A stretch of DNA of 64,000 nt, taken from the NCBI GenBank assembly GCA_916048055.1, contig CAJZHL010000017.1:62001-126000 (forward strand). The letters are read 5' to 3'. Positions within the stretch are counted from its first letter, which is position 1; the number at the start of each line of letters is the position of its first letter. A program made the position numbers and the translations under genes. The DNA comes from Pedinophyceae sp. YPF-701 (Eukaryota > Chlorophyta > Pedinophyceae). Of this stretch, positions 1,220 to 64,000 are shown piece after piece. The notes beneath the pieces were generated by a model, which had not been told where the DNA came from, made no database searches, and saw only the letters and a program-made list of their open reading frames with translations.

Positions 1220-2635
1220 TCAGAGCTCCAGGCCGTCCACCTTGAGCTTCTTGCCGCACACCGGGCAAGCGCGGGAGCGCTCCCGCCACTCGAGGATGCA
1301 CGGGAGGTGGAAGTGGTGCCCGCAGCGGGTCGTCATCTTCGGGTTGGAGTCTGCGGACGCAGAGGCCCGGCGCGGGCGTGGTGAGCGGCGCCACGGGGCA
1401 GGAGGGGCGGGCCGCCGCGCGAGGCACGTTCGCAGCGCGGGGAACGGCGATAGCGCGGCGGCGCGGGCGTCCGCAGCCGCCGGGGCGCAGCGGGCGCCCA
1501 CCGTCGTAGGGGTCGAGGCAAGTGGGGCAACACTCGTCGTCGTCGACGTCGCCCAGGTCCGGGCCAAGGAGCTCCTCTATCTGGTTCTTGAGCTTCAGGG
1601 ACTTCTTCGCGGTCGCGGGCTCCTCCCAGGACAGCTTCCCTGCGCGCGGCGGGGGCAGGTCGTTGGGCGGCAGTTGAGGGGGCGCCTCTGCGGGTCCGCA
1701 CCGCCCGCCTGGCGCACCAGAATGCCACCAAACGGCACGAACGGTCGGTGCGCGACGTGGGCGCCGCCCCTCGGGCGCAGGTTCGGCGGCCCGGGCGGAG
1801 AAAACCGCAGCTGCAGCACAGGTGCATCGTGTGCTGCGCACACGCCCGCGCGTCGCACCTTCGAGCTTCATCTGCGTCTGCGCGGCCGTGTCGACGCCCT
1901 CGCTCGCAGCTCCCCTCGCGCCGGGCGCCTTGCGGTGCCCGCGGCGCCCGGTGGTGGGGCGCGCAGGAGTGGGGCCAGAAAGCTCCTCCGCGCTCGCCGC
2001 GTTCGCGCGGGCGGCCTGCCCGGCCGTCGCGCGGGGCGAGGAGCGCGCGTAGCTCACGTCCCAAGTGCCTTCGCTATCGTTCGAGCCCCCGCCCCCGTGA
2101 GGCGACTCGGGCGAGGTGGGTGCCGCTCGCAGAGGGTCGTCCTCCCCCTGAGCGGCCCTGCGGGGAGCTCCGCGCACGAGGAGTGGCGGACGGGTCGGGA
2201 GAGGCGTCGGGAAGCGGGCGCGCGCGGAACGCGGGCGCGCCGGCGGCTCCGCGCGGCACGATGACGCGCTCACGGTGAGCTGAGGCCTCGCACAGCACTG
2301 GGGCTGGAACCCGGCCGCTCGGGCCGGGCGAAGCGGCCTCGGGCGGTTCGCAGCGCCGGTCGAAAAATAACCCGCGCGTCGAGATCGCGAATCTGGGCCG
2401 AGCGCGTGTCCACGCGACGGGAGCGGCACCGATGCTCGTCGTGGCCCAGCACGGCCAAGCGCCCGGCGCGTGCGCGGCGCACGCCGCTGCCTCGCGCGTC
2501 CGCCGGCAGCCGCGGGCCAGAGCTCGCTCCAGCGGCGTTCGGAAGGCGCGCGCGCGGGCGGGGGGGGGGTGTTTCGCACCCGTGCCGATCCAGGTTCCTG
2601 GCCCGGGCGGGAAAGCAGCACAGGAAGGTGGCCAT
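1220..2635 (-). CDS. RING-H2 finger protein (At3g02290-like E3 ubiquitin ligase)
   Basis: I model five exons: 2635-2580, 2157-2058, 1877-1859, 1639-1502 and 1350-1220, giving 147 aa with every phase matching. The C-terminal third is a RING-H2 finger: CPTCLDPYDDSNPKMTTRC, then GHHFHLPCILEW and CPVCGKK, so all eight metal ligands (C2-H-H-C3 order with the H2 signature) are present. Spacing and the NPK(M/I)TT(R/K)C motif are those of plant At3g02290-type ligases, which transfer ubiquitin from an E2 to unknown substrates. The N-terminus MATFLCCFP is Cys-rich like the plant proteins, where it may be lipidated (inference). Exon 3 is only 19 nt. The two C-terminal exons are certain; the three upstream exons rest on splice consensus and phase. 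It is divergent from GPN2 across 760 bp. Confidence 0.8.
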
Positions 2636-3395
2636 GATGCAGGTGAGAGCGTCCTCGACAACGGTGAGCGCGCAGGACGTGTTCGCCATGGAACGCGCCC
2701 GCCGCCGGTCACGACCGCACGAGCCGCCCGCGCAGCCGGTGCGTGCTGTGTGCCCCTCGGGTCGCCTGCAGGTTCAGGGCGCTCTGCCGGCACGAACCGA
2801 CCGCGGCGCGCCCGGCGCCGTTCCTGGATGCAAGGGCTCGCAGGGTGCGCGCCCAGGAACGGATGCGCGCCGGGGACCGGTGCGCGTCAGCTGCGCAGCG
2901 GGCGCAACGTTTTCTGCACCCTGCTTCGTGCTGCGCGTGCTGCCAGCGTGGAAACAGATGACGTGGCGCTGGCGGTGGATGTGGCGGGGTCTGGAGTATA
3001 GCGGTGGCGGGGTGCGCGCGCGGGTGATGGCCCCGCGCTGCGGGGAGTGGTGCTGGCAGCGCACGCTCCGGGGATGTCCCGGAGGTGTCCCGAGGGGGCC
3101 GGCTGGCGCGATCGGGGCGAGCCTCGCGCGCGGAGGAGCATTCTGCGATGCCCGAGGCGTGGTGTTCCGTGCTGGAAGTCGCGGCGTGCGAGCACTGGAG
3201 CGAGCGGAAGCCTTGCGCTGTTGTCCGGGCGTGAGGACGGGCGTGGAGGATGGGGAGTTGATCGAGGGCCGGGCGTACTGATGAGTGGGAGGGCGAGTAG
3301 CCAGTCTAGGGCAGCGTAGCTCGTAGGCGTTGGCTCGAGTGTGCGGCAGAGCCGTGGCTCGGGGGCCCGCCGCAGCAGTGGTTGCCCCCCGCGCC
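2636..3395. other. Divergent intergenic region, RING gene / GPN2
   Basis: A 760-bp stretch between two divergent start codons, probably carrying both promoters. I see no gene or clear TATA element in it. Confidence 0.45.
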
Positions 3396-4818
3396 ATGGG
3401 GGGTTTCGGCCAGCTCGTTACAGGTCCTCCCGGAAGCGGCAAGACGACGTACTGCAACGCCGTGCAGCAATTCGTCGGGAGATACGGGTGAGCCTCGGCA
3501 CCACAGCTGCGCCACTCTCGCAGGCGGTCACCGGGGCGCCTCACGGCCCTCACGACCCAGACGACCTAGGAACGGCCTCCACATGACTCATGTCGCCAGA
3601 AACGCCGCGTCGCGGGACTGCGTTGCGCGTCTGGGCGTCGAGTCGGTCTCAGGAAGCACACCCCCACTGTTGCGTGTGCAGGATCCCTGTGTCGGTCGTG
3701 AACCTCGACCCGGCGAACGACCAGCCCAGCTACGAGTGCGCGGTGGACATCCGCGACCTCATCACGCTGGACGAGATCCAGCGCGAGGCCGGCCTGGGCC
3801 CCAACGGCGGACTCGTGTTCGCGCTCGAGTTCCTCCGCGACGACCTCGCGTGGCTCGACGAGCGCCTCGCGCCGCTCCTCAAGGACCAGCACTACCTCCT
3901 CTTCGACTGCCCGGGCCAGGTCGAGCTCTTCTCGCTGCACTCGGCGCTCCAGGACGTCGTCACACACCTCACGCGCGGGGCCCCGGGGCTCTCGCTGGCG
4001 ACCGTGCACCTCGTCGACGCGCTGCTGTGCGCGGACCCGAGCAAGTACGTCTCCGCGATCCTCCTGTCGCTCTCGTCGATGCTGCACGTGGAGCTCCCCC
4101 ACGTCAACGTACTGAGCAAGGTGAGACACCCCCCCACGCGCCGCGGGTGAGGCAGGGTTTCAGCGCGTGCTCTGTAGTAGGCTCGGGCTGCCTAGGCCGG
4201 CGGTGGCAGAGCGGGGCCGTCAGGGAGCCGTCGCGCGCGTTGGCGCGCATCGCAGCGTGTCGGGCCTCGCGGGCGATGCACACGGCCCGGACCCCTCCGC
4301 GGCCCGCGCAGGTGGATCTCCTGAAGACGCAGCAGCACGCGGAGGGTTTCGACCTCGAGTACTTCTTGGAAGCGCGCGACCTCGGGCATTTGATATCTGC
4401 GATGGACTCGAGCGCCCTACTGCCGGAGCGGTTCCGCAGGATGGCGGGGGAGATCTGCGAGACGGTCGAGGACTTCGGCCTCATGGGGTTCGAGGCGCTC
4501 GACGTGTCGGACCCGCGCAGCCTGAGCAAACTCCTGCGCGTCGTGCACGCCGCAAACGGCTTTGCGTACGCGCAGCCGGACGCGCCGTGGGAGGCCGGGG
4601 CGGGCGAGGACTGGGCGGCGCACGAGGAGGCTGAGGCGCGCGCGCGCCTCGCGGCCATGGGCCTAAACATGCCCCCGGAGCCAGGCTCAGTCGAGGGACG
4701 GGAGGTGGCGAGTGACGGCGGTACATCGATTGGCGACGCGGTGGCGGAACCGGCGAAGGGGGCGGCGCCGGGCGCGCGGAAGGCGGGCAAGGGCATGCGG
4801 AAGGGGTTCCTGCTGTGA
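3396..4818 (+). CDS. GPN2: GPN-loop GTPase 2
   Basis: Three exons, 3396-3487, 3682-4120 and 4312-4818, encode 345 aa. The protein starts MGGFGQLVTGPPGSGKTTYC, so the P-loop GPPGSGKT lies at residues 9-16, right at the N-terminus as in the family. VVNLDPAND follows (switch region). The hallmark Gly-Pro-Asn loop is in EAGLGPNGGL, and LFDCPGQVELF is the G3/Walker B segment. The third exon carries the helical C-terminal part (LLKTQQHAEGFDLEYFLEARD) and a lysine-rich tail. GPN GTPases act in cytoplasmic assembly and nuclear import of RNA polymerase II. GPN2 rather than GPN1 or GPN3 is chosen from the FGQLVTGPPGSGKTTYC start and overall length (human GPN2 is about 310 aa). Introns start GTGAGC and GTGAGA. 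Confidence 0.93.
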
Positions 4819-5112
4819 CGCGGCTCGCGTGTTGTCGTGGGGGGGACTGGGTAAAGACAGGAGAGGGGGTTTGCGCGGTGCGAGCAACGTGGGTGGCTTG
4901 ATGGGGGCGCGCGGGCGCGGCTGGCATGTTCGTTCATGGTGGTAGCCGCAGGGCGCATCTGTGGTCACGGCGCACACGCCCGTGCATTGGCATTGCCTGT
5001 TGCAGCCCGAGGCCGTTGCCCGGCCCACAGCGCCGTCTCGGTTGCCGCAGTTTGGGGCGGCGCGCGCGGCGGAGCGGGCCGGGCTCGAAGTGCGAGAAAC
5101 AGGGGGAGCGGG

Positions 5113-8100
5113 ATGGGAGAGAACGGGGCGATGGAGCGGCCCGCGAAGAAGGCGAAGGTCGATTTCGATGTCTCTCAGCACGCCTCGGTGGTCGTGCTCG
5201 ACTATGGGTCCCAGTACACCCAGCTGATCGCCCGGCGCGTCCGCGAATTGTCGTGTCTGTCGGTCCTGCTGCCGGGGGACGCGTCCATGGTGAGTCGGCG
5301 CCCCAGACCGATCCCCGCGCACGGCGCCAGTGGCCCGAGCGCGCTCGCTGCTGCTTCGCTCGGGGACCAAGCTGCGCAAGCGGCTTCCCGACTTGCGACA
5401 TGTTGCCCGTGTCGCGTCACGCAACGGTTGCGCGCCCCGCGAGGCCCAGCGACCGACCAGTCGTTGAAGGCCCAGACGCCCGCCTTTGCGGACCCAGGCG
5501 AGAACACGCTCGTTCCGCGCGGAAGCGCGTAGCGGGCGTGTCCGCCATGTCGGCCGGCGCCGTTTCGGGGCAAAATGCGCCTGAGATGTGCCGCGGGCCC
5601 GCCGCACTCGCGACCTGGTTGCCATCAATGCCCTGCAACCCGCCGCCGCGCCGCGCAAGGATCTCCTCGCCCGCCGCGCCCGCTCGGCTTGCCAGAATCC
5701 ATCCCAAGCGAGACTTCCTGGTCACTCTCGCGGACCGTTCCGCACCAGCGGTGCTGCGGTGGCAGGGCCGCCATCCCTCGGCACCTCCACCACCGCCCCC
5801 GCGTCGCCGCGCGCCCGGCCACCGCGCACCTCTCTACCCCCGCGAGGCCTCCTCATCGCCGGCGCATCCAGCGCCGAGAGCCCGCCCCCGCGCGCCCCTG
5901 CCACGCCTAGCAGCCCGCCGTCTCCCCGCCGCCGCCGTTCGCAGGAGCGCATCGCGTCGCACAAGCCCCGCGTCATCATCCTCTCCGGCGGCCCGAACTC
6001 CGTCCACCTCGAGGGCGCCCCGCGCGTCCCGGACGAGTTCTTCGAGTATTGCCGCGAGCACTCGGTTCCGGTCCTGGGCATCTGCTACGGGATGCAACTG
6101 ATCGTGCACATGCTGGGCGGCGAGGTGGTGGCCGCGACGGACGGCGGGGAGTACGGCAAGATGAACATCCACTGCTCGAAGGACTCGGTGCTGTACGGCG
6201 ACATGGACGGCAAGCAGCTGGTGTGGATGTCGCATGGCGACGAGGCCGTGCGCCTGCCCGAGGGCTTCCTCGCGGTGGCCAAGTCGGAGCAGGGCGCGAT
6301 CGTGGCGATCGAGAACCCGAAGAGGAAGATCTTCGGGCTGCAGTACCACCCGGAGGTCATGCACAGTGTGCGTGGAAAGGAGACCCTGCGGCGCTTCCTG
6401 TTCGACGTGTGCTTGATGCGCGGGGACTGGAGCATGGAGAGCGTGCTGGAGGAGCAGCTGCGTCTCCTGAAGGACCAGGTGCGCGCCGTGGCTCGCGGAG
6501 CCCCGCCGCTGCCCCTGCGTGGTGTGTGCTTGCGTGACGACACGGCGAACATCCTATTGCTGTCGCGTACGGGGTGCCAGGGCCGCAGGCGGGCCGGGCA
6601 CACTGTGGCCGGCCCGCGCAGGCCCGCTTGATGAGCACACAGCCCAGCGCAGCCGCCGAAGAGCAGCTCGCCCGGTCGAGGCTCCCGCAGCTGCCGCTGG
6701 CGGACTCCGCGTCTCGAGGGCCGGTCCCTTGGCGCGTCGAGGCCGTTGGCGGCGCACGGCTGCGGGGACAGCCTCCTGGGTCGACGCGAATGCTGATTCC
6801 ATCAACCTCCGAAGCCCCGTCGGGGCAGTTATCGGTTGGTTTCTGCCCAGCAAATGACATCCCCCGCCCTCCCCTCCCCTCACCGACATCGCGTCCGCTG
6901 ACGGCCTCGTCGCACGCGCACCGCTGCGGCGCACGTGCCCGCGGCCACCTCGCGCCCCGTCCCGCCCCCACGTCGTGGCGTTGTGTGTCTGACCGCCGTC
7001 CCAGGTGGGGGAGAACGACCACGCGATTTGCGCGCTGTCCGGCGGCGTTGACAGCACCGTCGCGGCGACGCTGGTGCACCGCGTCCTCGGCGACCGGCTG
7101 CACTGCGTTTTCGTCGACAACGGCCTGCTGCGGTACAAGGAGCAGGAGCGCGTCAAGGCGACCTTCGTCGACCACCTGCACCTCCCCGTGACCACCGTCG
7201 ACGCCACCGACCGCTTCCTGTCGAAGCTCAAGGGCGTCTCGGACCCCGAGAAGAAACGCAAGGTGCGCCCGCGCTGCCCACACCTCTCAACACCCCCCCC
7301 CCGACAAAGGCTGGCAGTTTTCCACGCATCTTCCTTGCTTGCGCGAGACGGTGCCGTTCCGGTGGCGCGCCTCGGCGCCTGCGTGCGCCAGGCGAGGCCG
7401 GCACTGCGCGTTTGGCCAGCAGGCTCGTTTTCGAGCCACGTTGCTTCGTTCCGCGTGACGTGCGTGCCAACGGCTGTTCGGTATCTGGCTGTGTGACCAG
7501 CGCGGAGGGCTGGCATTCGCCGCCCCCGTGTTACCTGAGCACCGCCTCATAAGGGAGCCAAGAAAGACCCGGTGTTCTTTGCGACGTGCTGCCCGCTTGC
7601 TCATGAGGGCGGGGCTACCAACGCACCGCACACACCCCCCCCTCCTTCCCCGCGGAGGCCCACGGCCCCGCGCGCCCCTGCGCCACGGGCGCTCACGTCG
7701 CCGTTCAGCTTCTCTCCCGCCACGCCCACGCATTCCACATTCCGCGCAGATCATTGGGACCGAGTTCATTGGAGTATTCAAGGACTACGCGCACGAGCTG
7801 GAGGCGAAGCTCGGGGTGCACCCGCGCTTCCTGATCCAGGGCACGCTGTACCCCGACGTCATCGAGTCGTGCCCCCCGCCCGGCAAAGGCCAGAAGCACT
7901 CGCACACCATCAAGAGCCACCACAACGTCGGGGGGCTGCCCGCCGAGCTCGGGTTCGAGCTGCTCGAGCCCCTGCGCGAGCTGTTCAAGGACGAGGTGCG
8001 CGCGAGGCCCTTCGGTTCGCCCCGAGACGTTGCGCGCCTCTGCAATGTTGCGTGACGACACGGCGAACATCCTATTGCTGTCGCGTACGGGGTGCCAGGG

Positions 8101-54225: not shown

Positions 54226-57200
54226 TCACCGCGTGGCCGGGAAGACGATGTCGGCCATCAGGCTGTTGCTGGACGTGGCCGACTGCGACAGGAGGCCGCC
54301 CGCGAGCGCCTGCATCTCCCGCAGGAATGCGCCCGACGGCAGCGGCAGGTTCTCGCACTCCCCGTTGTGCAGCGCCGAGCGCAGCGGCGGCGCCCACACC
54401 CCCTCGTCGCTGCCGAGCACGTGCGTCGCCGACGCGATCGCCGCCGCGGCGCCCGCGTCGTGCGCGAGGTCGTTGACGTCCTTGGACGCCCACGAGAGGA
54501 AGTCAGCCGCCGGCGCCCGCTCCCCGACGTCGTCCCCCGTCCCGGTGGTCCGCGACGACGCAGCCGTCGACGCAAACTCGCTGACGCGGAACTCCGGCGC
54601 CGCGGGGTTCAGAATGCGCGCCGCCATCCCCGACAGCGGGTGCGAGAGCTCCCAGTGGCCCTCGGGGCCCATGGCGTGCCGGTGCCGCTGCTGGTTCGCG
54701 GTGGCAACGGCCGCTTGCTCTGCGGCCTCGTTCGGGGCGCTCGCGTCGACGTACTGCGCCCAGCGCCGCTGGCCGCCGTCCTCAGACACGTCGTCGCGCA
54801 GCGCCGGGCGCACGCGCAGGCACGCCAGCGCCTCGCCCGCGGACGCGTCCTCTACCAGCAGCAGGCGCAGGAAGTCCACTCGCGCGTCGGCGGAGAGCGC
54901 GTCCCAGGCCCAGTACGGCAGCGAGACGACACCGTAGCCGTAGTGCTCGAGCGTGCGGCGCCGCGCGATCGCCTTCCCGAGCGGGCGCGGGACCTCTTCG
55001 CCCTTGAGCACGTTGACGCAAAACATCCTGGCGTTGTCGAGGAGGAGCACCTTCTTCAGGGACCCGTCGGGGCCCACCAGCGCAGCATCGCCGCGGAGGG
55101 AGCCGTCCGCGGCGCGCCACCGCGGCTCGAACGCCACGCCGAGCGCGCTGAGCGCCCCGAACACGTCCATGTGGAAGCAGTCCGCGGATTGCAGCGCGGG
55201 CTCGCCGGAGGAGATCCAGCCGGCGTGCGCGGCGGAGACCGACGCGTCGGAGAGCTGCTCGAGGCCGCCGTGGTCGTCGTCGCTGCTGTGCGTCAGCAGC
55301 GCGGCCTCGTACAGGAGCGCGGCGTCCGAGGCGCCGCAGCGCGGAACGGCGTCGTCGACCGCGCCGACGAACCGCGCCCAGAGCGGCGCATCGAGCGCGC
55401 CCATGACGCCGAGGCCCCAGAGGAGCGTGGACAGGCTGTGCGGGCCGCAGCCGGCCGCGGCTTCGCCGGCGCCGCCGCCCGAGAGAAAGGCGCGCAGGGC
55501 GCCGACGAGCACGCCCGGGGCCTCGCCGAGCTCGGCGCAGGCCCAGACGAGCGCCGCGAGGTCCGCGGGGCGCAGCTCGTGCAGCCGGCAGCTCACGTCG
55601 GAGATCAGCGCGGACAGCGCGCGGGGCCCCGGGTGGTGGCGCAGCGTCGCGAACGCCCAGAGGATGTTCGCGGCGTGCTGCGGGCGGCGCGCGCTCGCGA
55701 GGGCCGACGTCTGGTCCGCGCCGAAGCGCGTGCGGCACACCGCGGCGACGGCGTCCAGGATGCGCGCGTCGCGGATGCCCAGCTTGGACAGAGCCCAGAC
55801 GAGGTTGGACAGCTCCTGGGGCTTGAACCTGCAGCCACGGAGACACGACAGCGAAGCTGTTGGTGCTGGCCGCGGAAGGGCGTGCTGCCCGGGAAGGGGC
55901 TGTGCTCCTCCTTCTCGGGCACGCCCCGGAGGCGCCGTCGACAGGCACCGCGGTCTTGAAGACTGATGGTGCAGCCATTCACGCGTGGTGGACGGGAAAC
56001 ACGCGTGAGCGTGATTGGGTGGTGCATGGTTGGCGCTGGAGGCGCACCCGGACATGCAGAACACGCTCTGCTCGGACAGGCCGTCGAGGAACTCGCGCGG
56101 CGGGAGGAAGTCCATCGTCGCGCACGCGTAGAGCGAGATGCTGAGATGCTGCGGCGCGAAGTCGGGCAGGACCTCCGCGGCCGCCGCCGTGAAGTCCCGC
56201 AGGAAGCCCGCGGGCGGCGCGTGCTGCAGCGCCGACAGCGCCCACAGCATATTCGCGACCGCCTGCGGGCAGAACCGGCTCTGCGGCCGGCTCCACGCCT
56301 CGGCCACCACAGCCTCCCACAGCCGCTGCCCCGGGTCCGTCTGCCCCGATGCCGCCCCGCCGGGCCCCGTGCCCAGGTGCGCGACGAGCTCGTCCGCGAT
56401 CGTCTGGAACGCAGCGTCCATCGTCGTCGGGCCCAGCGTCCGCCGGAGCGTCGCGTTCGCCCACATCAGGTTGGAGATGCCCTGCGCGTCCATGTCGCGT
56501 AGCAGCTGCGCGGCCATCGCGTTCAGGCGCGCGGCGTGCGCGGCCGCGCGGGCGCCCATGCTGCGCCCGGACGCGTCCGTCAGCCCCGCGCTCGCGCCGC
56601 CCCCCGTCGCGCTGCCGGCCTCGTGCGCGGCCCGCGCCAGGCGGTGCAACGCCGTGGAGACGTTCACGGCGTTCAGGCGGACCCGCGGGAGCGCGCCGTT
56701 CTGCGGGAGCATCTCGTCGAGCAGCGCCAGGACCTGCGAGGACGCGCGCGGCGCGCGGCGTGTTCGGCGGCTGCGAAGCGACACGCGGCGCGGGTTGCTG
56801 CGCGCACTGCACGCGGGACACGACCGGCGCCGCCGGGGGCGCGCGGTGGGCGCGCGGCACGTTCGGGAGGCACCTGGGCGATGGTCCGCGCGCGCACGAT
56901 GCGCTTGTTGATGCTTTTCGAGGCGGCGATGTCGGCCTGCCGCGCCTGCGCTGCCAGCGGGTCGCGGCTACGTTCCAGGGCGCGCGACAGCGACGCGCCG
57001 GAGCCGGCCGCGGCGACGGGGTGCTTCCGGCGACCCTGCGCCTCCGCGTCCGGAGTCCCTGACCACGGGCGCAGCCTGCGGGGCAGGAGGGGCCGCGCCG
57101 AACGCTTTGTAGGAAGCAAGTCATGTGTGGTAGGAAGCAAGTCATGTGTGTGCTTGATATGCGTCTGGGTGGCGTAGGTCGTGCGCCGGGAGGAGGGCGT

Positions 57201-58918: not shown

Positions 58919-61900
58919 ATGCTGGCGGGCGTGTCGGGTCAGAGAAAAGGCGTGGGGCGTGCCGGACTGCACTTGCTACAGCTGTGCGCGGCTCTAGCCA
59001 TAGGCGCGGGTCTCCTCGGGCTTCTCGGCGTCCACGAGGTGCAGGTCGGAGGAATGAAGGTCTCGATACCGACCTCCTCGGTCAAATGGATTGCAGGGCG
59101 CGCGCGGCCGAGCGCGCGGCCCGCCTCGGCGGCTCCTCCGCACGCTGCGCGACTCGGAGGTTGCAGGTTGGCGCCCCCCGCTGCGTTTCCGCGCTCGAGA
59201 CACAAAAAGCGACGAACGGTGCCGGCTCCGCCACCCCTCATTCCGCATTACGCGCCGCGTCGCGCACGAACCCCAATTACGCCTGTGCCGCGCGGAGCCG
59301 AGATACCCTGGGCTCGACCATCGCTGCCGTCGCCCGCTCGCCGGCTCCGCGCACCCGCGCCGTCCGCACCGCCGCGAGCCGCTCGCGCCGCAGCGGTCGC
59401 ATCGCCACGCGGCAGCGCGGCCCCTCCCCGCGTCGCGGCCCGCGGTCTCCGCTCTCCAACTGCAAGTCCTCTCTGCCCTCTCACTTCCTCCGCGTGCCGC
59501 GGCGCCGCACCGTGCCTCGCAGCGAGGAGATGTGCTCGCTCGACGGGCCCGAGCCTGGACTCATGGTGGAGAGCGTGTTTGGAGGGAGCCGCCTCGGGGC
59601 GGTGCCGCACGCGCGTAGCCCGGTCGCTGCGGGTGCAGCGCCCGCGCGGACCGCGACTGGAGTCGCCGCGGACGACAGGTGAGCGCCCGCGTCACACCAA
59701 CTCCAAGGACATCGCGCGATCGCGCCGCGCGTGCCCGCGTCTCCGCCGGGCGCGCCGGAATCCCGTGAGGTCCACACACACGAGCTAGGTGCTGCGTCCG
59801 GCGCGCTCGCGCGCCGCGCGCGTCCCGGCGCGGCCCGTCCGGCCGGAGCAGCGGTTCCTGACGCCGCCCCGCCGCCCGGCCGCGCCGTTCGCAGGTGGTG
59901 GGACAAGGACAAGGAGCTGTGGACGGACGTGCACACGGCGGACGACTACTGGCGCGAGATCAACAACTCGGACAAGGACCTGGTGATCGTGGACTGGTAC
60001 GCGACGTGGTGCCAGTCCTGCCGCATGCTCTACCCGCGGCTGTGCTCGTTCGCGCGCGACAAGGACCTGCGCAAGCGCTTCAAGTTCATCAAGGCCAACG
60101 TCGACGAGCTGAAGCCGCTCGCCAAGGAGCAGGAGGTCCTCGCGATGCCCTTCCTCATCGTGTATCGCAAGGGCGACCGCGAGCCGCTCGTCGGGTGGCA
60201 CCTCCCGCCCTCGAAGATGAAGCACCTCCGCAAGAATGTGGAGCTCATCGCGGAGAAGCCGGAGTCGGCCTTCGCGGTCGACCCGAACGGGTTCGTGATC
60301 AGCACGGGCCCGCGGCTGTCGGCGCCGGACCGCCAGCGCGTCAAGGACGAGAAGAAGAAGGAGGTCGAGGACATGGCGCGCAACCGGGGGGGGCTGTTCG
60401 ACCACCTCATGAAGATCGGGGCCGTGGGCGAGCGCAAGGAGCGGCGGGACAAGGCCGTCGCGGACGCGGGCGCGCGCCGGGAGGCGGCCGCGGAGCCCGC
60501 GGCCGTCGCGCCCGCGCCCGCGCCGGCGGGGCCGTCCAAGGCCAAGAGGGACTTCCTGGAAAAGTGCGCGCCCCGCCAGGGATCCGCGACTGACTGTTCC
60601 GTGTGTGCCGCGCGCCCGCGGGGCGTCCGCGGCGAACGCACACGCTCGTCGCGCAGTGCGTCCCAACGCTGGCGTGTTCCGCCGCGCCGCGCGCAGGTAC
60701 GGGCACATGTACGGGTACGGCGGGCAGATCGACGCCCTGTACGAGTCGGAGGTGGGCGCGCGGCTGAACGGCGGGCACTACCTGGACTACACGGGGTCGT
60801 CGGTGTACACCTCGTCGCAGCTCGACTCGGTGTTCCACGAGCTCAAGGCGTCGGTGTTCGGGAACCCGCACTCCGCGAACCCCTCCTCGGCGCTGTCGTC
60901 GCGCCTGATCGAGGAGGCGCGCGACCGCGTGCTGAAGCACTTCAACGCCAGCCCGGTGGACTACCACGTGGTGTTCACGAAGAGCGCGACGGGCGCGCTG
61001 AAGACGGTCGGCGAGGCGTTCCCCTGGACGGACAAGAGCGAGTACGTCTACCTGCGCGAGAACCACAACAGCGTCCTCGGGGTGCGCGAGTTCGCGCTCC
61101 AGAAGCAAGGGACCTTCCGCGCCCTGACGTACGACGAGGTCGAGGAGTGGCTGTGCGACACCGCCGCGACGCAGCCCTTCGACGGCTCCCCCACGCGCGA
61201 GCCGACGTACAACCTCTTCGCGTTCCCCGCCGAGGACAACTTCGCGGGCATCAAGTACCCCCTCCGCTGGATCGAGGCCGTGCGCGCGAAGAGCACCGCG
61301 GGCAACCGCTGGAAGGTCATGCTCGACGCCGCGGCGTTCGCGCCGACCAACCCGCTCGACCTCAGCGCGGCGCCCGCGGACTTCGTGTCGGTGTCGTTCT
61401 ACAAGATGTTTGGCTACCCGACGGGGCTGGGCGCGCTGCTGATCCGCGCGGAGAACGTCGACCTGCTCCAGGAGGTGTACTGGGCGGGCGGGACGGTCGC
61501 GGTGGCCACGGCGGGCGGCAACTTCCACTCCCTGCGGTGCAACCCGAGCGAGCGGTTTGAGGAGGGCACGGTGGCGTTCCTGGACATCGTGTCGCTCCGG
61601 CACGGGTTCGACGCGATGGAGAAGCTCGGGGGCATCAACCGGATCCAGGGCCACGTGACGTGCCTCGCGGAGTGGCTGCACGGCGCGATGCGGGGCCTGA
61701 AGCACCGCAACGGAGCGCCGCTGGTGCGCATGTTCGGCCGGCACGGCGACGCGGACGCGCGCGACACGCAGGGCGCGGTGCTGAACTTCGTCGTCCTCGG
61801 GAACGACGGCATGGCGGTGCCGTACAAGCGCGTGGAGGACCTCGCGGCGCAGCAGGGCTTCCACGTGCGCACCGGGTGCGAGTGCAACCCGGGCGCGTGC

Positions 61901-62212
61901 TACGCGTGCCTGGGGCTGTCGGACGACGAGGTGGAGCAGCTGGCGGGCGAGAAGGAGGGCTGCAACGACGACTACGAGTTCGTGCGCGTGCAGCGGCCGC
62001 GGAGGGACGTCTTGCAGGGCAAGGTGATCCAGGGGCGCCCGCGGTCGCCGGAGCTGGTGATCCAGGCCGCGCCGACGCAGACGAACGGCGAGGGCGGGAT
62101 GCAGTGGGTGGACGTGCCGCTCGGGACCGTGCGCGTGAGCCTGGGCTGGTGGTCGACGTTCGAGGACTGCGAGGCGTTTGTCGGGTTTTTGAAGACGACG
62201 TTCCTCGACTGA
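58919..62212 (+). CDS. MOCOS: Thioredoxin-molybdenum cofactor sulfurase fusion
   Basis: Exons 58919-59097, 59523-59678, 59895-60563 and 60697-62212 encode 839 aa, all phases closing (each join is phase 2). An N-terminal hydrophobic segment (LLQLCAALAIGAGLLGLLGV, about residues 19-38) may anchor or target the protein. Residues about 113-235 form a thioredoxin domain: VIVDWYATWCQSCRMLYPRL with the WCxxC redox pair, FKFIKANVDE and the cis-Pro in AMPFLIVYRKG. After an Ala-rich linker comes the NifS-like half of MoCo sulfurase: YLDYTGSSVYTSSQ, FGNPHSANPSSALSSRL, the PLP lysine in VSFYKMFGYPTGLGALL (about 571) and the persulfide Cys region RTGCECNPGACYACLG (about 729). It ends GTVRVSLGWWSTFEDCEAF. 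The C-terminal MOSC domain of ABA3/MOCOS is absent. The sulfurase makes the sulfido form of MoCo for xanthine dehydrogenase and aldehyde oxidase. The first donor must be GC; exons 3 and 4 are certain. Confidence 0.87.
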
Positions 62213-62826: not shown

Positions 62827-64000
62827 TCACGGCCGCCGCCCTCGCGCATCGTGCTCACCTACGATGCTCTTGGACATCCGCGAGGGCGACCTCTCGTTCC
62901 CATCGTCCTCCCGCACCGCCAGCGACTCCGGCAACAGGTGCGTCAGGTCCAGTTGAGACGTCTTCTGCTCCGTCTTCGAACCCGCCAACCCGCCGCTGTC
63001 CGGCTGCGACCCCGCCTTGCTCTCCCTCCCCAGCGACGTCAGCGACGCCGCGCTCTGCCCCGCGCTGCGGAGCTGCTGAGTCAGCGGCGACGGTCCCGCC
63101 ACCTGCGTGCCCAGCCCCGTTCCGACCGGCGGGCGCGGCGACGACGCGAACCCGTGCGTCGGACCCCTCGGCGGCAGCGGCGCGCCGCTCGCGTGCGCCC
63201 GCGCGGGGCTCACCAGCACGTTGCTCTCCGCCCCGCCCGTGGGTCCAGTCACCATCGGCGGCTGACTCGGCATCGCCTGCGCGGGCGGAGACCCCCCGTA
63301 GATCGCCTGGCTCTCGCTCGTCAACGCCCCCACGCGGTCAGCCGACCCCGAAATCGGAATCCCGCCGGCCTGCTCCGCGCCGGCCGCGCCGCCGGCGACC
63401 GCATCGAGCGCGCTCAGCACCGGACAGCTGGCGGCCATCGCCGGCGGCGGCATGCCGGCGGACTGCGGCACCGCGGGCCCGGAGGCCCCGGCCGACACCT
63501 GGGACCCCTCGATCCCCGTCATCTGGCTCATGCGCGAGTTGCGCGGCGGCAGCTGTGCGCCCTGCACTTCGTAGCTCTCCTCCCTCCCCGCAGCGGCGAG
63601 CTCGTGCTGCGACGCGACCTCCGAGGCCCCCGCCTGCGCCCCGCCCGCGGACCCGAGGGAGAGCGACTGCCCGCGGTTGCGCGAGTTCGACCGCGAGCCC
63701 GCGGGCCAGCGCTGCTCCGCGGAGACACCCCCCTCCTGGTAGAACGAGTTGCCGGCGCTGTTGTGCGACGGAGAGCGCGCGGTGCCGGCGACGACGGTCG
63801 GCACGAGCTGCGGCTCGCCGTCCGCGCCGTCGTCGCCCGTGAACGACCGCCCGAGCGTCCCGAGCGCCTGTGTCAACTTGTTGATGGCTTGCACGGGCGC
63901 CGAGGGCTCCAGGTCCGCGCGGCCGGACTCGGCGCCCGGCGCGACGCTCGTGTAGTGCAGCGGCGTGTGCACGGGCTCCGGCGTCGCGGACGTCACGTCG
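62827..64000 (-). CDS. C-terminal part of a Ser/Pro/Ala-rich disordered protein (partial)
   Basis: A minus-strand frame is open from the window end (64000) to a stop at 62827, about 390 codons. The composition is low in hydrophobics and rich in Ser, Pro, Ala, Gly and Gln, so it is predicted to be disordered. Slightly ordered pieces are VQAINKLTQALGTLGRSFTG near the window edge and SQLDLTHLLPESLAVREDDG followed by RSPSRMSKSIVG at the end. No domain is recognised; it may be the tail of a kinase, transcription factor or signalling scaffold whose domains lie outside the window. It has no visible intron in this part. High codon GC in one frame and lack of stops over 1.1 kb support coding, though GC-rich DNA alone gives long open frames. 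Confidence 0.55.
   Translation of the reverse strand, partial: DVTSATPEPVHTPLHYTSVAPGAESGRADLEPSAPVQAINKLTQALGTLGRSFTGDDGADGEPQLVPTVVAGTARSPSHNSAGNSFYQEGGVSAEQRWPAGSRSNSRNRGQSLSLGSAGGAQAGASEVASQHELAAAGREESYEVQGAQLPPRNSRMSQMTGIEGSQVSAGASGPAVPQSAGMPPPAMAASCPVLSALDAVAGGAAGAEQAGGIPISGSADRVGALTSESQAIYGGSPPAQAMPSQPPMVTGPTGGAESNVLVSPARAHASGAPLPPRGPTHGFASSPRPPVGTGLGTQVAGPSPLTQQLRSAGQSAASLTSLGRESKAGSQPDSGGLAGSKTEQKTSQLDLTHLLPESLAVREDDGNERSPSRMSKSIVGEHDARGRRP

Follow-up and report, generated by a model that had tools for sequence, protein, structure and literature searches.

A predicted fusion of thioredoxin with a MOSC-less, MOCOS-type cysteine desulfurase in a pedinophyte alga

The ABA3/MOCOS enzymes resemble the protein considered here in having a desulfurase domain of the class V aminotransferase type with a PLP lysine and a cysteine loop, but the algal protein lacks their MOSC domains, has a thioredoxin placed in front, and comes from a genome in which no client of the xanthine-oxidase family was found. 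ABA3 passes its persulfide on to STR18, a second protein, which speeds the enzyme by taking it (PMC8931425). The same study describes a natural cysteine desulfurase-rhodanese fusion from Pseudorhodoferax, which is similar to the algal protein in joining a desulfurase to a thiol protein able to take a persulfide and differs from it in being bacterial and in having a rhodanese as the partner (PMC8931425). While desulfurase-rhodanese and desulfurase-TusA fusions have thus been published already (PMC8931425, PMC11763069), no report of a thioredoxin-desulfurase fusion was found among the titles listed in a literature search of open-licence papers, and the word thioredoxin has no occurrence in an article on molybdoprotein domain fusions (PMC6147048). 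For Chlamydomonas, section 2.2 of a paper devoted mainly to the SUF system lists five desulfurases including ABA3 and describes no thioredoxin fusion (PMC8003979).

In Pedinophyceae sp. YPF-701, what appears from the sequence to be one nuclear gene is predicted to encode a thioredoxin, a linker and a MOCOS-type cysteine desulfurase that has no MOSC domain. The gene lies in the window, by which we mean the whole stretch of 64,000 nucleotides that was analysed (positions 62001-126000 of contig C17 in a 27.9-Mb, 32-contig assembly, 70% GC). Its parts, numbered from the first position of the window, are as follows.

59895..60563, + strand: exon A, with the thioredoxin domain, the linker, and then the beginning of the desulfurase domain, FLE plus the greater part of the K codon (basis: PF00085, the 6lyw match, reading frame and splice site)
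59932..60180, + strand: thioredoxin domain in its Pfam extent, residues 13-95 of exon A
60007..60021, + strand: WCQSC redox motif, from the translation
60148..60150, + strand: proline of the MP motif, from the translation
Within exon A: linker, some 100 residues long and Ala/Pro-rich at its end
60553..60561, + strand: FLE, the beginning of the desulfurase N-terminal motif, inside the thioredoxin exon (basis: conservation in homologues)
60564..60696, + strand: predicted intron of 133 bases, GTGCGC...GCGCAG, whose hexamers recur in the SufS intron of the same genome
60697..62212, + strand: exon B, the MOSC-less MOCOS-type cysteine desulfurase domain up to the stop codon (basis: PF00266, E 1.4e-27, and a SufS-like fold)
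61403..61405, + strand: Lys236 in SFYKMFGY, conserved in 83/83 sequences, the putative PLP lysine by family membership
61877..61885, + strand: Cys394 and Cys396 in GCECNPG, candidate persulfide cysteines, each conserved in 83/83
61898..61909, + strand: Cys401-Tyr-Ala-Cys404, a CxxC pair, with cysteine in 0/82 bacterial relatives at both places

The thioredoxin assignment of the earlier note, made from the WCQSC and cis-Pro motifs, is borne out by our analysis. PF00085 matches exon A with 59.9 bits against a cut-off of 23.5 (E 2.6e-16), and both motifs stand in the translation, the MP-motif proline occupying the putative cis-Pro position of the family; exon A thus combines a Pfam domain above the cut-off with the CxxC and cis-Pro motifs of a thioredoxin. 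Its top match in the PDB is 6lyw, 'Thioredoxin-like 2-1, chloroplastic' (E 2.5e-15, 35% identical), a name which we presume to denote ACHT1, and both proteins share a WW start and a WCxSC motif (WCGSC in 6lyw, WCQSC in the alga). When the genome was searched with the 6lyw chain, the fusion was the best single match by E-value, whereas a gene on contig C13 was higher in identity. The latter, at C13:162377-162758, encodes an ACHT-like thioredoxin that stands alone and whose two exons are 47 and 52% identical to the chain, so that 6lyw is closer to this gene than to the fused thioredoxin. Together with the introns and a FAST_1+RAP protein encoded near the fusion, this C13 gene points to a green alga as the source.

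The NifS-like, MOCOS-type domain with PLP lysine and persulfide cysteine, also proposed earlier, is likewise supported at the level of sequence by PF00266 (Aminotran_5), which matches exon B with 97.1 bits, and by the candidate residues conserved throughout the alignment. Up to an E value of 1, exon B matches no Pfam model other than Aminotran_5, and the stop codon follows the end of the desulfurase domain, which agrees with the claim that the fusion lacks MOSC. An AlphaFold2 model of exon B alone, built with 46 homologues, reached a pTM of 0.84 and a mean pLDDT of 79, with low confidence for residues 422-474, and the 50 PDB matches listed for it are all desulfurases or selenocysteine lyases of the SufS-like fold. 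To these class II desulfurases (SufS/NFS2) the model is similar in structure (TM-scores by target of 0.79-0.86 in the 50 matches listed; 0.85 for 4w91, at 20% identity) but not in sequence, since identity in the same matches is 15-20% and the genome has a SufS-like gene of its own. The predicted fold and the active-site Lys and Cys are those of a class II cysteine desulfurase, and the corresponding activity is a prediction.

A genome search with Aminotran_5 returned 13 matches (22 candidates, 12 scored), and nine of these segments, compared with NCBIfam, were best matched by SufS, IscS, a SufS-like protein (the segment on C32), BhcA-like aminotransferases and SerC, so that separate IscS/NFS1-like and SufS-like desulfurase genes are present. 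Compared with loci L001-L014, the window protein matched, besides itself, only the SufS and IscS loci (29%), and for this reason we regard it as the only MOCOS-type gene found. The SufS-like segment on C32 (129788-130636) represents a third SufS-like desulfurase, with a low score against every named family. Two SerC matches of equal score, at C1:1698207 on a large contig and C18:7385 on a small one, are perhaps due to a duplicate or haplotype contig.

That the protein ends where the MOSC domain should start, as the earlier note observed, is true of the algal protein but not peculiar to it, since this MOSC-less form is shared by a large family of bacterial proteins. A scan of genome contigs gave at least 556 MOSC-less relatives, which suggests that such proteins are common in bacteria; the best 80, which were retained (L051-L130), are 37-44% identical in their best segment. 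A tblastn search against plasmids gave 82 records at E 1e-3. Among those listed, the two nearest come from Embleya, with 34% identity along 99% of the query, and from Gemmatirosa, with 41% along 75%; the other 23 listed show 23-28% identity. Since at most 79 residues follow the desulfurase match in the 82 bacterial loci compared, none of them has room for a MOSC domain. The stand-alone proteins L051-L130 resemble the alga in the N-terminal motif, the Lys, the Cys and the lack of MOSC, but they have neither a fused thioredoxin nor the CYAC pair, and their stretch before the last strand is shorter (32-38 residues in bacterial relatives against 72 between Cys404 and Gly476 in the alga, where the low-confidence part of the model lies). 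A fused thioredoxin was found in 0/82 bacterial relatives, and in no open reading frame does WCxxC precede the desulfurase match (for L130, whose extension is long, this was judged by eye); blastp and phmmer searches with exon A of all frames of at least 80 residues in these loci gave one separate thioredoxin-like frame, in L057. Viral contigs yielded no confirmed relative in two scans, and 11 phage records appeared at E 0.01, of which the 10 listed are at most 28% identical. Table entries from Spironucleus and Entamoeba carry the label 'molybdenum cofactor sulfurase'.

Gene order in bacteria gives no strong guide to a dominant partner, because none of the families represented among 133 neighbour proteins, chosen from 80 loci, has more than four occurrences; the 25 of 149 neighbour families displayed include no MOSC, xanthine-oxidase or thioredoxin family. 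In Gemmatirosa (locus L050), the MOSC-less relative is preceded by a rhodanese gene, a pair of Sulf_transp segments and another rhodanese gene (region 1288-6296), an arrangement that points to sulfur traffic and is a possible sulfur-traffic operon.

The reading that we prefer, and to which we give about an even chance of being right, is that the fusion is a redox-coupled cysteine desulfurase that supplies sulfur or makes sulfide, and does not finish the molybdenum cofactor (MoCo) of xanthine dehydrogenase or aldehyde oxidase. PLP and Lys236 would strip sulfur from cysteine, Cys394 or Cys396 would carry it as a persulfide, and the fused WCQSC thioredoxin, on its linker, would either reduce this persulfide with release of sulfide or accept and relay it. 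Because the thioredoxin would act on the persulfide in one of these ways, the output of the enzyme would track the thiol-redox state of its compartment. Both domains retain their catalytic residues within the one predicted polypeptide. In Bacillus subtilis the thioredoxin system reportedly reduces such persulfides, as the title of a study has it. The idea of the earlier note that the thioredoxin acts on the persulfide is chemically reasonable, since thioredoxins reduce protein persulfides and free H2S from sulfurtransferases (PMC11763069).

A plain reductase role is, however, argued against by the oxidising character of the TrxL2 and ACHT proteins, given that the closest solved thioredoxin is Thioredoxin-like 2-1. 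The nearest alternative, which we consider unlikely, is that the thioredoxin, ACHT-like and relatively oxidising, serves chiefly as a switch, which would make or break a Cys401-Cys404 disulfide (or one with Cys422/Cys491) and so gate desulfuration by light or peroxide. It is favored by the CYAC pair, which adjoins the catalytic loop, and by the cysteines at 153, 281, 422 and 491, since these six have a counterpart in 0/82 bacterial sequences (Cys322 is common to 55), as well as by the chloroplast thioredoxin-like protein that is the best PDB match. Cys401 may, on the other hand, be no more than a general trait of MOCOS proteins in eukaryotes, the motif of ABA3 being GCFCNPGAC, and the closer stand-alone ACHT on C13 also speaks against the switch. 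TrxL2 and ACHT are described as high-potential chloroplast proteins whose targets they oxidise or may oxidise (PMC6882916), which is in line with the switch.

Drainage or relay of the persulfide and a CYAC redox switch may both hold. In its boldest form, which we think quite improbable, this would mean that an alga without the xanthine-oxidase family retained a MOSC-less MOCOS-type desulfurase and brought it under direct thiol control; its fused, ACHT-like thioredoxin would drain the persulfide and would also toggle a new CYAC disulfide next to the catalytic cysteines, in which case cysteine-derived sulfide or persulfide would read out the chloroplast redox state within one polypeptide. Most work on which proteins reduce or receive the persulfides of desulfurases, and on the redox control of sulfur release, has used separate proteins; a natural fusion of thioredoxin and desulfurase would link the partners physically, and point mutations in it could separate persulfide reduction, relay and redox gating.

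Judged by its sequence, the fusion is unlikely to be a molybdenum-cofactor sulfurase, as it has no MOSC domain and none of the client enzymes turned up in the genome. The known clients of MoCo sulfuration are xanthine dehydrogenase and aldehyde oxidase (PMC10385300), but three models of xanthine-oxidase-family domains (PF02738, PF20256 and PF00941; control genomes prokaryotic) gave no match in the 27.9-Mb assembly, where a client might be missed if the assembly is incomplete. The suggestion that the fusion sulfurates MoCo was accordingly not supported: the NifS-like domain of such an enzyme, including its PLP lysine and catalytic cysteine, is present, while a C-terminal MOSC in the same protein and, with the three models in this assembly, a client of this family are not. 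It had further been expected that a separate MOSC protein would supply MoCo binding, and one stand-alone MOSC gene was indeed found, the sole MOSC match in the genome, on C6 beside MOSC_N matches. This gene, however, looks from its sequence like mARC, itself a molybdoenzyme, the three sequence matches above noise being human mARC1 constructs. A two-piece sulfurase, in which the fusion would form the persulfide while MoCo is bound by a MOSC protein encoded elsewhere, would account for the MOCOS-type domain and for the MOSC_N-MOSC gene on C6, but we consider it very improbable in view of the absent matches to the three client domains, the mARC1 likeness of that gene, and the lack of MOSC and xanthine-oxidase families among the bacterial neighbour families displayed. 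The label 'molybdenum cofactor sulfurase' on MOSC-less proteins should not be read as function. PF00174, of the nitrate reductase/sulfite oxidase type, has four matches in the genome (two genes on C28, two pieces on C9) and MoCF_biosynth has five; at C28:2405426-2432697 a MoCF_biosynth gene lies between the two PF00174 genes, which are oppositely oriented, possibly as a nitrate/molybdenum cluster.

The joint between the thioredoxin and desulfurase exons looks real as far as the sequence can tell. Joining them through GT at 60564 and AG at 60696 gives a single open frame of 727 residues (counted from the first whole codon of exon A) that reads ...DFLEK/YGHMYGYG... across the predicted junction, so that the spliced frame claimed earlier to unite the two domains holds as a prediction. 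Bacterial relatives open with F-[LVI]-x-x-Y-P, while in the alga F-L-E-K closes the thioredoxin exon and Y-G begins exon B, the predicted intron thus interrupting the desulfurase N-terminal motif. In an alignment whose algal row included FLEK, the Phe is kept in 73/82 bacterial homologues, which indicates that the desulfurase domain starts within the thioredoxin exon; the next residue is L, V or I in 63/82, and the motif Pro, present in 73/82, is Gly in the alga. An intron of 161 bases in this genome's SufS gene carries hexamers identical to those of the predicted fusion intron (GTGCGC donor, GCGCAG acceptor), and of three CAG acceptors tried there only this one keeps the joined frame open, restoring ...STETLE/SMPPWQGGGEMI. 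That two adjacent genes were misread as one, the desulfurase gene beginning at the ATG of YGHMYG, which is in frame four codons into exon B (60707), is hardly credible, since the family motif F-L-x-x-Y straddles the junction, exon A has no in-frame stop before the intron and, unspliced, continues in the wrong frame to 61560, and the splice hexamers equal those of the SufS intron. A promoter and terminator scan of 60500-60750 found nothing, although its patterns are bacterial and carry little weight.

At the 5' end, no in-frame ATG occurs between the start of the open frame at 59683 and the thioredoxin domain, and an upstream exon is therefore needed. Codon scores, trained on exons A and B themselves, climb sharply at 59896, and a weak candidate for the intervening intron is the following.

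59679..59894, + strand: possible upstream intron, GTGAGC...TCGCAG

Its donor (AG/GTGAGC, at 59679) is compatible with the frame whose ATGs lie at 59086, 59530 and 59563 but not with that of 58919, where the gene had been proposed to start. The 58919 stretch resembles non-coding sequence in its codon score and in its GC3 of 0.74, which lies inside the 0.56-0.88 of nearby non-coding-looking frames, compared with 0.99 for exons A and B. The proposed start is thus unsupported, and so is the hydrophobic N-terminal membrane tether, which depends on this exon.

Downstream of the gene, an open frame of 390 residues on the minus strand (window positions 62830-63999), rich in Ser, Gly, Ala and Pro and without a Pfam match at E 0.01, runs past the window edge. 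Upstream, also on the minus strand, an open frame at 54229-56967 carries FAST_1 (E 3.3e-11) and RAP (E 4.9e-6) domains; algae are known to have organellar RNA-binding proteins of this kind.
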